DNA of 64,000 nucleotides, taken from contig JUEM01000002.1 of NCBI GenBank assembly GCA_000817085.1, positions 1 to 64,000 on the forward strand, read 5' to 3'. The position numbers and the translations under genes are program-made. This document shows, piece by piece, positions 35,207 through 49,417 of this stretch. The stretch is from a marine actinobacterium MedAcidi-G1. GTDB taxonomy: Bacteria; Actinomycetota; Acidimicrobiia; Acidimicrobiales; MedAcidi-G1. The stretch's first letter is position 1, and the number at the start of each line of letters is the position of its first letter. A model generated the notes under the pieces. That model saw only the letters and a list, made by a program, of their open reading frames with translations. It made no database searches and was not told the DNA's origin.

Positions 35207-36235
35207 TCAATCTTTCAAAAAATCTTGGAATGTCGAGTTAGCTAAGTCAATTAGAAGAAGAACGCGTTCTCCAAAAACTTCAATAGCTGCGGCATCGGCT
35301 TCACTGCCCATTACTCCTGCCGCATATCTTGTATAAACACCTTCAAGTATGCAAGCAAGTCTCCAATAAGCAAATGATATATAAAAATCTAATTTTGAAA
35401 GGTCTCTTTCACTCAAGTCGTCGTAAAGGTCATGCACCTCCCTAGGGGTAGGGAAACCCTCAACTGACATTGCTTGTGTTTCCATACCTGTAAGATCATT
35501 TGAATAGGAAATAATTGCTGCAAGGTCTGAAAGAACGTCACCTAATGTGCAAAGTTCCCAGTCTAAAACCGCAGCCACTTCACCCGTTTCTGTCATGATC
35601 GTATTATCTAATCTGTAGTCGCCATGCACTATCCCGACACCTTGCTGTTCAGGAATATTTCTCAAAAGTTTGTCATGAACTTCGAAAACACCTGATATTT
35701 GTCTATTAGTAGATTGTTCAAATTGTGCTTTCCAGCGTTTGAGCTGGCGTTCGATATAAGCATCTTTTCTAGCTAAGTTTCCAAGTCCTACTTGGTCAAC
35801 GTCTACTGCATGTAAAGAAACAAGTGTTCCTAAGAGAGATTCACCCATTTTCTTTCGAGCTGAGAAGGATTGGGATCGTGCAATTTCAGCGTCACGTACC
35901 ACTACTCCTTCCACAAAATCCATTACATAAAAAGGGGCGTCGTTTATCTCTGTGTCTTCACAAAGACCAACTACTTTGGGAACTGGGACGTCACTTTCAG
36001 CGAGTGCTTTAATTACTCGGTATTCACGGCTCATATCATGTGCAGTTGCAAGAACATGTCCTAGCGGAGGGCGTCTAAGAACCCATTTTCGACCTGATTC
36101 TTCCATGACTGTATAAGTCAAATTAGAGTGACCTCCAATAATTTGGTGATACTCGAGCTCACCTTCAACCCCGTTCACATGTATATCTAACCATTTTCGC
36201 ACCTCATTTTTTCTTATACCCGGAGTTGTATTCAT
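35207..36235 (-). CDS. Phosphotransferase of the APH/ACAD10 family
   Basis: Aminoglycoside-phosphotransferase-fold kinase of 342 aa. The nucleotide loop is YHQIIGGHSNLTYTV, the hinge region is FYVMDFVEGVVV, the catalytic loop is IVHGDYRLDNTI (HGDxxxxN) and the metal motif is AVLDWE. This subgroup occurs beside acyl-CoA dehydrogenases in actinobacteria and is thought to act on hydroxyacyl or related substrates rather than antibiotics. The gene lies near crotonases and a thiolase-like gene here. No acyl-CoA dehydrogenase is in the window. Confidence 0.83.
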   Translation of the reverse strand: MNTTPGIRKNEVRKWLDIHVNGVEGELEYHQIIGGHSNLTYTVMEESGRKWVLRRPPLGHVLATAHDMSREYRVIKALAESDVPVPKVVGLCEDTEINDAPFYVMDFVEGVVVRDAEIARSQSFSARKKMGESLLGTLVSLHAVDVDQVGLGNLARKDAYIERQLKRWKAQFEQSTNRQISGVFEVHDKLLRNIPEQQGVGIVHGDYRLDNTIMTETGEVAAVLDWELCTLGDVLSDLAAIISYSNDLTGMETQAMSVEGFPTPREVHDLYDDLSERDLSKLDFYISFAYWRLACILEGVYTRYAAGVMGSEADAAAIEVFGERVLLLIDLANSTFQDFLKD

Positions 36236-36313
36236 GCTCAGACGGTAGTGGAGGAAAGAGGATCTCTCTACCCTAAAGGTAAGGAAATTTGTTTTCTTGT
36301 TTGGTGGATGAAG

Positions 36314-43562: not shown

Positions 43563-44255
43563 TTGATTAACCGTAGTCTTCAGAACAGTATTTGTGCAGT
43601 ATCTCAGAATACTTTAGGCAATCAGAAAGTGGGACTTGTGTCTGGCGAATTAGTGTATTTAAACGAAGTGACCAGACGCTTGATGAAAGCGGTTCGCTTG
43701 ATCGACACAACTGATGAAGTTATAAATGAATTAAGTAGAAAAATTTTTGATGTTGTTTCGGAGGCTGAAAATTATAGCTACGAAGGGACAACGGCACAGG
43801 GGTCTTTGAAGAACGATAAAAACCCAATTGAAAGAAGAGATCAGAGCCCGTCAGAATTTTTTCCTTACAGTCCGGCTGTAGGCCCTCTTAATCCAATAGC
43901 ACCACCTTTAAAGGTGGAAGTATGCAATGAAGGTGAGTACAAGGAAATAAGAGCTCTTGGAAAACTTGATGGAGTCTATGTAGGGCCACCTGATCTTGTC
44001 CAAGGAGGTGTAATTGCTTTACTTTTTGACGACATAATGGGAAGCGTTTTGGTTGTCAATAATTGTGGCGCTATGACAGGAACGTTGGAAGTAAGATATG
44101 AAAAACCTACTCCCATAGCTAAAGAACTTTTATGGATAGGGAAGATAGAAAAAATTGAAGGTCGAAAAATTCATGTTTCAGCTGAGCTCTGGGCGGAGGA
44201 AACGAGGACTGCAATAGCAAAAGGAATTTTTGTGAAAGTAGAAATGTTGAGTTGA
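43563..44255 (+). CDS. PaaI-type hotdog thioesterase
   Basis: C-terminal half (about 110-230) is a hotdog fold of the PaaI/4HBT group: GVYVGPPDLVQGGVIALLFDD is the central helix region and GTLEVRYEKPTPIAKELLW the following strands. It probably hydrolyses acyl-CoA thioesters. The N-terminal 100 residues are helical and of unknown role. The start is uncertain: TTG 43563 gives 230 aa, while in-frame GTG 43653 or ATG 43683 would give a shorter protein that begins near NEVTRRLMKAV. A strong terminator follows 16 nt after the stop. Confidence 0.8.
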   Translation: MINRSLQNSICAVSQNTLGNQKVGLVSGELVYLNEVTRRLMKAVRLIDTTDEVINELSRKIFDVVSEAENYSYEGTTAQGSLKNDKNPIERRDQSPSEFFPYSPAVGPLNPIAPPLKVEVCNEGEYKEIRALGKLDGVYVGPPDLVQGGVIALLFDDIMGSVLVVNNCGAMTGTLEVRYEKPTPIAKELLWIGKIEKIEGRKIHVSAELWAEETRTAIAKGIFVKVEMLS

Positions 44256-44271
44256 TGGTCCACATAAATGC

Positions 44272-44305
44272 AAAAAACCCCGCCACCGAAGTGACGGGGT
44301 TTTTT
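44272..44305. terminator. Bidirectional intrinsic terminator
   Basis: Six A's and CCCCG (44272-44282) pair with CGGGG and a T-run (44295-44305). An inner CAC/GTG step closes a CGAA tetraloop, with one C-A mismatch. The A-run on one side and an eight-T run on the other make it work on both strands. It ends the thioesterase gene (plus) and the small membrane-protein gene (minus). It is the strongest intrinsic terminator in the window. Confidence 0.93.
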
Positions 44306-44319
44306 TTAGTTATTGCTAC

Positions 44320-44640
44320 TTAGCGGGCTACGCCTTTACCAAGAGCAGAAATTGCTGCATTTCCGACCGGAATAAATGCACAAATTGCTAGTGCAGTTCC
44401 GATATCAGATCCGAAACTTCCCATTCCGAGAATTTCGGTTGATGCACCGTAGTCCATACCACCAAGTTCGGTGATTGCTACGAAAAGATAAGCCCAAATT
44501 AAATTTAAATTAGGCCCGATAATTGGAAGTCCTTTAAGCATCCCATTGACACCTGCGGTGTCGAGAATACTGTCAAGAACAGCAACTACACCCTGAAAAA
44601 GCATTCCTAGAATTATCAGAGTGAGAATTGTTGACATCAT
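44320..44640 (-). CDS. Small membrane protein of unknown function
   Basis: 106 aa, very hydrophobic, with three likely membrane segments at about 3-24, 44-60 and 78-100. A glycine-rich loop (GLPIIGPNLN) lies between the first two. Only three charged residues precede the last helix and the C terminus is GKGVAR. No family is recognised. The gene stands alone, with a strong terminator 15 nt after its stop and a 194 bp leader containing a hairpin. The start could be either of two adjacent ATGs (44640 or 44637), with AAGGGG upstream. Isolation and terminator strength hint at high expression. Confidence 0.72.
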   Translation of the reverse strand: MMSTILTLIILGMLFQGVVAVLDSILDTAGVNGMLKGLPIIGPNLNLIWAYLFVAITELGGMDYGASTEILGMGSFGSDIGTALAICAFIPVGNAAISALGKGVAR

Positions 44641-44668
44641 GGAGAGGTACCCCTTTTATAGTTGTAAC

Positions 44669-44694
44669 TCGACTGGTCTCACCGGACCAATCGA
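44669..44694 (-). promoter_or_regulatory. Hairpin/operator-like dyad upstream of the small membrane protein
   Basis: TCGACTGGTC (44669-44678) and GACCAATCGA (44685-44694) pair in 9 of 10 positions around a 6-nt loop. It begins about 29 nt before the ATG of the minus-strand gene. A TTGACA hexamer on the minus strand overlaps at 44697-44702, but no good -10 is found 16-18 nt downstream, so a promoter is not assigned. Leader hairpin or operator are both open. Confidence 0.45.
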
Positions 44695-44834
44695 ACTGTC
44701 AAATGTTAAATTAGAAGAATCAAATGACGCTGTGGTGGATCCTGTTTGAACTTTCTTTAATATTTTTTGATTTTCCTTTTTTTTTAAGCAAAATGCACTA
44801 ATATTGCCGCTTTATAGTAAAGATAGGCGGTTTT

Positions 44835-46010
44835 ATGCGGAAAAAGTCTTCCAATGAAGCTCTTAAATCTTTATTCGTGATGTGTTTCTTTCTTATTTTC
44901 GCTTCTTTTTTAGCACCTGGTGTGCTTGACATATGGGCCTCAACACAAAAAAATGATTTTCGTCGTGATTTAGCCAGAGAATGGTCAGAGCCAATAGGTG
45001 ACTTAAGTAGAAAAATTAAATTTGATGAAATAAGAGATTTTTCAGAACGCATAATTGATACTTCTCCATCAGAACAGATGCTTGAACCATTAGTGAAACA
45101 AGTTTTGATCGTCCCAGAAGAAAGCTTTCCAATACTTTCAATAAAAGAAGCAAAGGAAGAAAATGACAGCGGGGTAAAAGCAACTGAATTGAAATCAACA
45201 TCATCGAGTATTGAGAATCTAATTGATCTGCCGCCTAGCCCGACGATTTTACCTCCTCAGATAACCGCAAATGCAATAGCTGCAACTACAACTACAACTA
45301 CAACTTTAGTTAACCCAGAGTCTTTAGCGAAAATTCGAAGGACAGCTACGGTTGAAGATCCGCTAAGGATACTTGCCGTAGGTGACTCTCTTATGCTTGA
45401 TTTTCAATATGGACTGGAAAGAATTTTAGAAGCACGGCCTGATGTAAATATTGAAGGCAGGGGTGCGCTTGGTTTTGGCTTCACGGTTCCTTATTGGGAC
45501 TGGGAAGATGACGTAATACCTGATTACAACTCGATGGTCAGAAAAGTGCGTCCGGACATTGTCATAGCAATGATTGGAGCTAACGAATTTCAAGGGTACG
45601 CAATCGAAGGGGAAGATCTTGAACCAGGTTCTTTGCGGTGGAGCGAGGTTTTAACTGAGCGAGCGAACGACGCAATTTCTCATTGGATAGCAGATGGAGC
45701 ATACCTGTATTGGTGGACTACCCCTAAAATGTCGGATCCCTCTTATTTGACGGACGATTTGAACAGCATTTGGCATTCTGTAGTCAGTGATTGGTATCCA
45801 AAAGCTGAAATGCTCGACAGTATGGAAGTCTTAGGTGATGAAGAAGGAAAATTTCGTTGGAATATGAAAATGCTTGATGGTTCCATGGTTCCTCTTCGCA
45901 AAGAACATGGCGTCCATTTTTTTGAAGTAGGAGCCGATGCTTTGTCTAGAGAATTTGAAGAAATCTTAGAAAAAGATGGATGGGTTGAAAATCTGTTGCC
46001 AGTTTCTTAA
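44835..46010 (+). CDS. Exported SGNH-fold (DUF459-like) protein with poly-Thr linker
   Basis: 391 aa. A membrane anchor near the N terminus (about 12-36) is followed by an extracytoplasmic low-complexity region with seven Thr in a row (151-157), then a C-terminal SGNH domain. Block I is AVGDSLM (Ser185), block II GRGALGFG and block III MIGANE (Asn250). In block V the expected Asp is replaced by His (HGVH, residues 358-361). DUF459 proteins sit in surface-polysaccharide clusters and may modify glycans by acyl transfer or removal. The Thr tract is a plausible O-glycosylation site. It starts with ATG 44835. Confidence 0.78.
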   Translation: MRKKSSNEALKSLFVMCFFLIFASFLAPGVLDIWASTQKNDFRRDLAREWSEPIGDLSRKIKFDEIRDFSERIIDTSPSEQMLEPLVKQVLIVPEESFPILSIKEAKEENDSGVKATELKSTSSSIENLIDLPPSPTILPPQITANAIAATTTTTTTLVNPESLAKIRRTATVEDPLRILAVGDSLMLDFQYGLERILEARPDVNIEGRGALGFGFTVPYWDWEDDVIPDYNSMVRKVRPDIVIAMIGANEFQGYAIEGEDLEPGSLRWSEVLTERANDAISHWIADGAYLYWWTTPKMSDPSYLTDDLNSIWHSVVSDWYPKAEMLDSMEVLGDEEGKFRWNMKMLDGSMVPLRKEHGVHFFEVGADALSREFEEILEKDGWVENLLPVS

Positions 46011-48379: not shown

Positions 48380-49417
48380 GTGTTTAGAAAATACTACAAA
48401 GAGTGTGTTATTACGTCCATTTGTTTTCTATCAGCATGCAGCTCTACAGAAACCGCTTTTGGAAATCTATCTGTAGAGGAAACAGTGACATCAACTGCAA
48501 GACAGGAAATCACCACCCAGACGGCAAGATTGCCAACTCTAACCTCGACTAGCTCACCTAACTTGACCTTTTTTACAGAAGATTTAACGCCAGCCTCATC
48601 TTTATTAATCGAAAAAGAAGTTGTTCTAGAAACAACTCTTTTGGACACACAATCAGATAATGGAGAAAAATCAGAAACGGAAAGTGTGGATTCGAGTGAA
48701 AATATAATCAGAACTCCAACAGAAAATGAGCCTTTAAGTGTCGTCACTATTGGAGACAGCGTTTCTTATGATGCAGATCTAGCTATAAAAGCAGTTCTAG
48801 AATCAACTAAAACGGTCAATGTAGAAAATAGGTCATTTGGGGGAGTTGGTTTAACTCAAAAAGGATTTCAGGGCTATCTAAAAGAGTCTCTCGAAAACGA
48901 ACCTGAGGTTATGACAGTAATGATCGGAGGTTGGGATCTGGCATTTGCCGAAGAAAATCAAAAAGAGTATGAACAAATCATAGAAAATTCAATAGAAGAA
49001 ATACTAAAAGTTTCTTCCCTGATTATCTGGATAGGAATGCCTCCAACCCCTGAGGGGGAAGGTTTGGAGGAAAATCGCCATCTAGTTAATCAAATTTATA
49101 GAGAAATTTCTGATCGCAAAATAGAAGTTGAATTTATAGATACAGATGAACTACTTGGCAGTGAACAGGGTGCTTTTGTACGTTTCCTAACTGGCCTTGA
49201 TGGTAAGACTTATCAGATACGTAAGGTTCGCAACGGCAAGGACGATGGGCATCTATGTCCATTCGGTGCTGCAGTTATAGGTAGATCTGTTTTTGAAAAA
49301 ATTGAAGAAAGGTTTCCCCTTTTTACGAAAGAAGACAACTGGTGGTTGGGGGAGTGGACTAAGGATCAACGTTACGATGACCCCACAGGGGGATGCTCAT
49401 ACATCCCTGTCGAATAG
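48380..49417 (+). CDS. Lipoprotein with SGNH-hydrolase fold
   Basis: 345 aa from GTG 48380. The signal peptide ends in the lipobox LSAC (Cys20). A Ser/Thr-rich linker runs to about residue 115, then the SGNH domain starts. Block I is TIGDSVSY (Ser127), block II GGVGL, and block V DDGH (Asp288, His291). In block III the oxyanion Asn is replaced by Trp (GGWD, residues 183-186). It is probably a surface glycan-modifying enzyme or a binding relative. It converges on the GT39-like gene and overlaps it by 21 nt. Confidence 0.76.
   Translation: MFRKYYKECVITSICFLSACSSTETAFGNLSVEETVTSTARQEITTQTARLPTLTSTSSPNLTFFTEDLTPASSLLIEKEVVLETTLLDTQSDNGEKSETESVDSSENIIRTPTENEPLSVVTIGDSVSYDADLAIKAVLESTKTVNVENRSFGGVGLTQKGFQGYLKESLENEPEVMTVMIGGWDLAFAEENQKEYEQIIENSIEEILKVSSLIIWIGMPPTPEGEGLEENRHLVNQIYREISDRKIEVEFIDTDELLGSEQGAFVRFLTGLDGKTYQIRKVRNGKDDGHLCPFGAAVIGRSVFEKIEERFPLFTKEDNWWLGEWTKDQRYDDPTGGCSYIPVE

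Follow-up and report, generated by a model that had tools for sequence, protein, structure and literature searches.

Gene organization of the locus

The window, that is, the whole 64,000-nt stretch of DNA analysed here, is part of a 1.68-Mb assembly of the marine actinobacterium MedAcidi-G1 (G000; 43 contigs, 84% complete). It carries a solitary minus-strand gene for a 106-aa protein with three predicted transmembrane (TM) helices (Table 1), which starts with ATGATG. Its divergent neighbour is a DUF459 gene (44835-46010, plus strand). The convergent neighbour, also on the plus strand, encodes 230 aa (43563-44255) and includes a 4HBT thioesterase domain (22.2 bits against a cut-off of 20.6 bits); the TTG start assigned to this gene may be wrong. 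The interval first drawn around the locus, 44320-44834, takes in the ORF and its leader and leaves out the terminator.

Table 1. Coordinates of the features of the 106-aa gene in the window
Feature	Position	Strand	Basis
Intrinsic terminator, bidirectional, common to this gene and the convergent 4HBT-thioesterase gene	44272-44305		Hairpin-plus-T scan
ORF of 106 aa, three predicted TM helices	44320-44640	-	ORF list, hydropathy, relatives, pN/pS
Shine-Dalgarno AAAAGGGG, 9 nt before the first ATG	44650-44657	-	Comparison of leaders
5'-terminal stem-loop: TGAC/GTTA plus 10-bp stem, 6-nt loop	44665-44701	-	Fold, comparison, position
Inferred transcription start, about +/-2 nt	44701	-	Inferred from -10 position
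-10 hexamer TAATTT (TAnnnT in most clades)	44708-44713	-	Comparison of leaders
Conserved ATCCACC, -35 region, where other clades have their last 11-bp repeat unit	44734-44740	-	Comparison

The 106-aa protein and its relatives

Members of this protein family range from 99 to 115 aa. The ratio pN/pS lies between 0.00 and 0.17 in all 10 within-clade pairs tested, which identifies the ORF as coding. The hydropathy profile has strong peaks at residues 5-21, 40-56 and 84-100, from which three TM helices are predicted, and a weak peak at 25-41. The distribution of charges suggests that the N-terminus faces outwards and that loop 1 and the C-terminus face inwards, since loop 1 carries a lysine and the C-terminus is basic while loop 2 is acidic. 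Two AlphaFold2 runs on 28 sequences gave models too poor for use (pLDDT 53.7 and 47.5). Together with the relatives described below, these data establish that the three-TM protein noted in the preliminary description of the locus corresponds to a real and strongly conserved ORF.

In the samples compared, relatives fall within one order. In the nearest sample they occur in 37 of 61 genomes, which are all 37 members of the window's own family, f1, and none of the 24 genomes from other families; two of the 37 (G007 and G029) are fragments. The class sample yielded relatives in 14 of 296 genomes, the order sample in 55 of 397 (17 f1, 12 f131, 15 f151, 8 f7, 1 f17 and 2 f29) and the phylum sample in 6 of 396, and every match in these three samples falls within Acidimicrobiales. 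Five families besides f1 are thus represented (f131, f151, f7, f17 and f29), all of them Acidimicrobiales; some f7 genomes have no relative, and we do not claim a copy in every f131 or f151 genome. A scan of 84,980 species genomes identified 40 loci with a relative, nearly all of them named as Acidimicrobiia, Acidimicrobiales, Acidimicrobiaceae or Microthrix, the rest simply as actinobacteria. The named near relatives of the window are mostly Acidimicrobiales assemblies, several of which are ocean-derived according to their isolate names. The most distant relatives, L101 and L102 from f29 (E about 1e-13), retain the three TM segments and the terminator and have lost an IPxKDA motif near the C-terminus.

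Searches of Pfam, NCBIfam, PHROGs, PADLOC and PDB returned no usable family match for the 106-aa protein, and a 33-member profile found no PDB chain at E up to 10. A literature search that included the accessible part of PMC7771536 found no published description. The protein is therefore a member of no known family, as had been proposed; a clear match to a transporter or holin family, which would have contradicted this, was not obtained, the best Pfam hits being weak and below the cut-offs.

Two of these weak hits deserve comment. The first is to DUF4112 (PF13430), a membrane family of which the three-TM protein might be a distant member. Both are hydrophobic, about 100 residues long and have two proline-containing turns. 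Weak Pfam hits occur in 4 of 33 members (best E 0.046), and the end-to-end profile alignment is weakly significant (P 0.0041 and 0.0022 for two query profiles), the real score exceeding those of all 150 locally shuffled profiles with each query. However, DUF4112 was singled out after a scan of 24736 families, its hhalign probability is 8-13%, none of the 33 members passes any cut-off, the first 16 residues of the three-TM family fall outside the alignment, and no PF13430 match is found in any of the 21 genomes of the nearest sample for which this was determined. We consider such kinship unlikely; it is nevertheless the sole lead on the relationships of the protein, and a distant one.

The second hit concerns Phage_holin_4_2 (PF04020). 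A holin or phage remnant would also be a small multi-TM protein, and 2 of 33 members hit this profile at E 0.031, short of its cut-off. However, no relative was detected in 50,697 phage records or among viral contigs at the limits used, the gene is spread across the whole of f1 and is not phage-borne, and the neighbours examined include no recurrent lysis gene or lysis cassette. This origin is largely refuted and can be regarded as highly improbable.

Sequence constraint and expression level

Compared with three genomes from another genus (L043, L047 and L048), the 106-aa gene is the most identical gene of its neighbourhood in two cases and ties with the 271-aa gene c8 in the remaining one. 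Its synonymous divergence is 0.16 from G008 (0.50-0.67 for 11 neighbours), 0.43 from G002 (0.67-0.80 for 12 neighbours) and 0.47 from L036 (0.67-0.74 for 10 neighbours; the DUF459 paralogue pairings for L031 and L036 are probably not orthologous). The value for G006, 0.44, is not low (0.40-0.60 for 12 neighbours). ORFs of the ribosomal-protein cluster region, sets which include a few non-ribosomal proteins, have a median of 0.41 and a minimum of 0.27 against G008 (24 ORFs), a median of 0.56 and a minimum of 0.43 against G002 (25 ORFs) and a median of 0.37 against G006 (27 ORFs). The gene is therefore as slow at synonymous sites as ribosomal genes in two of three comparisons, those with G008 and G002.

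The preliminary description had proposed high expression. The low synonymous divergence agrees with this, whereas codon usage does not: it differs from that of ribosomal genes (rank 55 among the 63 ORFs of the window, z -0.53), in a genome where codon bias is weak. Strong expression is thus plausible on these sequence measures.

Terminator, neighbouring genes and insulation

The terminator downstream of the ORF has 15 pairs with a T run on each strand. It obtained the highest score of the hairpin-plus-T scan in the window, on both strands, which confirms the earlier view of it as the best terminator there and as bidirectional. This feature is typical of the family: once duplicates and downstream stretches that were too short or contained N had been removed, 78 of 86 relatives possessed their own terminator within 110 nt, compared with 15 of 182 neighbouring genes. 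Of the eight relatives that fail this test, several have a long hairpin with no accepted T run, while L065, L066 and L099 have no such hairpin either.

Flanking genes vary between families while the unit formed by promoter, leader, ORF and terminator persists. Neighbours in f1 include the DUF459 gene and genes that we take to be SDR-like and NT5C. Those in f151 are presumably acyl-CoA-dehydrogenase-like and alcohol- or threonine-dehydrogenase-like, and for f131 we assume trpB- and trpA-like, HU-like and FabZ-like genes. No recurrent operon partner appeared among the flanking genes compared between families, which suggests that the three-TM protein probably acts without one. The independent control and insulation first deduced from the window alone are thus borne out by the terminators, by the changing neighbours and by the structured leaders described below.

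The window contains two DUF459/SGNH-like genes of cluster c6 on the plus strand within 4 kb, at 44835-46010 and 48380-49417, of which the Pfam scan covered the former. A DUF2304 gene and a glycosyltransferase-like gene lie between them.

Promoter and -35 region

The 194-bp leader of the preliminary description exists as a region, but it is mostly promoter, and as intergenic DNA it belongs equally to the divergent DUF459 gene. Judging from the conserved -10 hexamer, transcription would start near 44701, leaving a 5' UTR of about 61 nt that begins with a stem-loop. The same order of parts recurs across clades: -35 repeats, TAnnnT, stem-loop, Shine-Dalgarno, ORF and terminator.

For the gene family as a whole, the region upstream of the -10 hexamer carries tandem 11-bp direct repeats. 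In 20 hand-chosen leaders, the first of each group and one per clade, the lag-11 repeat score reaches 5.30, compared with 4.42 +/-0.18 for shuffled sequences (best of 200 shuffles, 4.85), and 61 upstream regions used as controls show no such peak. The repeat is not evident in the window's own genus, where ATCCACC alone is conserved. The regulation proposed for this gene therefore gains indirect support from the -35 repeats that other clades carry, but its own genus offers ATCCACC only.

The repeats resemble the boxes of OmpR-type response regulators. MtrA is said, in the title of one study, to bind boxes of the GlnR format as well. This format is given as GTnAC-n6-GTnAC in PMC10704036, and the PHO box recognized by PhoP as two 11-nt repeats in PMC7866108. 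Leaders of the sponge clade f151 read GTCAC-n6-GTCAC-n6-GYAAC or close to it, which fits the GlnR format. When duplicate leaders, those that were too short and those with N had been removed, GTnAC-n6-GTnAC matched 5 of 82 leaders under a strict definition and 23 of 82 under a loose one, with no match of either kind in 61 controls. The loose box is absent from the other 59 leaders, the window's included. Likeness to GlnR, MtrA and PhoP promoters thus lies in tandem direct repeats of this length over the -35 region, whereas the units have diverged in most other clades, including that of the window.

A further difference is that the sites look nearly private to the 106-aa gene rather than regulon-wide, judging from pattern matches. 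GTTRCG-n5-GTTRCG occurs seven times in 12 genomes, five of them at the promoter of this gene (backward control, 11 matches), and the triple box three times in six genomes, two of them at this promoter (control, 2 matches).

ATCCACC was also considered as a promoter word common to other genes and rejected: the window contains 9 sites against 5.3 expected, a count reached by 5 of 100 shuffles, the flanks being judged by eye. The longer pattern, ATCCACCAC plus TTCTAAT, has a single occurrence in the genome. One other ATCCACC (36303-36309, minus strand) is followed some 20 nt further on by TACCTT, ahead of a 342-aa kinase-like ORF (35207-36235); it overlaps a divergent thioredoxin-like ORF at its start, and the leader there is not structured (z 0.24). 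In f7, L076 and L107 carry within 140 nt upstream an inverted pair that we take to resemble DnaA boxes, TATCCACA...TGTGGAtAA.

Leader stem-loop and ribosome binding site

The 10-bp imperfect hairpin of the preliminary description is real, being present both in the centroid fold of the leader (44669-44694; 10 pairs, 6-nt loop) and in the comparison across species. Its sequence has no other copy in the window at up to 3 mismatches, and Rfam searches matched no family to the leader, the sole match in the window being a tRNA. Taken alone, the 194-nt leader has no exceptional stability over its full length (z -1.23, matched by 29 of 200 shuffles), so the support for structure comes from the comparison between species. 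Twenty-one hand-chosen representatives, one per clade and two for f131, have a mean fold z of -1.83, compared with -0.01 for 65 control leaders of neighbouring genes (Mann-Whitney p 4e-9). Values at or below -1 were obtained for 17 of the 21 and for 7 of the 65; the four representatives above -1 include f151m2, which has no excess stability (z 0.02).

The position of the stem is also conserved. In 18 of 25 leaders the first stem nucleotide comes 6-9 nt after the -10 hexamer (overall range 3-19 nt; both positions were picked by hand), so that the stem should be located at the mRNA 5' end or close to it. Across 82 leaders, a set freed of duplicates, too-short sequences and those with N, the stem has wholly different letters from one genus to the next but still pairs. 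Folding several genera together to a consensus produced no common pairs, since the stems do not align, and covariation was consequently analysed within genera. In genus g1, 98.2% of pair cells hold, two pairs have changed on both sides, and the covariation score was reached by 9 of 500 shuffles; the corresponding figures for genus g4 are 93.5%, one pair and 13 of 500. Within-genus covariation is modest, and the strength of the case lies in the many different stems found at one place.

This rewriting bears on whether the inverted repeat at 44669-44694 acts as DNA, as the operator of a repressor, rather than as RNA. Like an operator, the repeat follows closely on the promoter, and in the window's genome it forms a near-perfect palindrome. 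However, an operator would be expected to keep its letters; here these are replaced completely from genus to genus, and what is preserved is the pairing, G-U pairs and bulges included. We consider an operator very unlikely.

Another possibility is that the structured leader serves mainly to switch translation (as a thermometer, ligand-dependent or autoregulatory) by hiding the ribosome site, rather than as a stability element. Leaders of f151 form a second hairpin, GACC-AAAGGG-GGUC, whose loop and stem include the Shine-Dalgarno and which in marine members is closed by GCCAG/CUGGC. Genus g1 shows weak GGGG/CUCC pairing over the ribosome site, and its initiation region and first codons are nearly invariant. 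However, this site, whose conserved form is (A)AAGGGG in leaders of f1 and f151 and AAGGAG in f131, is unpaired or weakly paired in most f1 and f7 clades, the constant element across clades is the stem at the 5' end and not pairing of the ribosome site, and no Rfam family was matched. A switch as the main function is rather doubtful. In L050-L062, the last 40 nt before the start codon form a nearly invariant hairpin, GCCAG...GACC-A(U)AAGGG-GGUC-CUGGC, that contains the ribosome site and may possibly serve as a translation gate in f151.

The reading of the leader as a stabilizing element finds its closest parallel in the ompA mRNA of E. coli, where a 5'-terminal stem-loop stabilizes the message (PMC2777011). 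Both are messages of a single gene for an envelope protein, with a stem-loop no more than a few nt from the 5' end (the inferred end in our case), a ribosome site downstream of it and a strong terminator. The protein here is a three-helix inner-membrane protein and not a beta-barrel, and some clades, namely f151, add a hairpin around the ribosome site. Working like an ompA-type stabilized message is, by analogy, the best reading of the 106-aa gene transcript.

An insulated expression unit

The small membrane protein gene at this locus is insulated and under independent control, and it has been retained in the whole of family f1 and beyond. The initial interpretation of the locus is partly supported. 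The ORF and its constraint, its spread, and the architecture of promoter, stem-loop and terminator with its conservation are directly observed. The joint best explanation, to which we assign a probability of about 50%, adds to them a transcription start, a regulator, RNA stability, abundance and an envelope role. The locus would be an autonomous transcription unit whose single gene encodes a three-TM inner-membrane protein of Acidimicrobiales. A response regulator of the OmpR type, from the GlnR, MtrA or PhoP class, would bind the tandem 11-bp repeats over the -35 region and so set transcription from the TAnnnT promoter. The stem-loop, within a few nt of the mRNA 5' end, would shield the message from 5'-end-dependent decay as in ompA, leaving the AAAGGGG ribosome site free in most clades. 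The strong hairpin terminator would close the message and block read-through to and from the neighbours. The product would probably be an abundant structural or scaffolding protein of the envelope, acting alone.

A more far-reaching version, which we regard as tentative, is that these proteins constitute an undescribed core envelope family of Acidimicrobiales, abundant and self-assembling, whose level would be set jointly by a response regulator on a private 11-bp array and by a stem-loop with rewritten letters. Nearly every lineage has kept the shape of this stem-loop while its letters were replaced.

The hosts are uncultured marine and sponge-associated bacteria, and the gene is found in every sampled f1 genome. 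Its product is among the best conserved proteins of its neighbourhood, and the expression unit is fully insulated. Should the protein prove abundant, it would be a structural component of the envelope and a lineage marker for transcript and protein surveys. The leaders form a natural series of sequence-rewritten mRNA 5' stem-loops, which may be useful for studying stem function outside E. coli.
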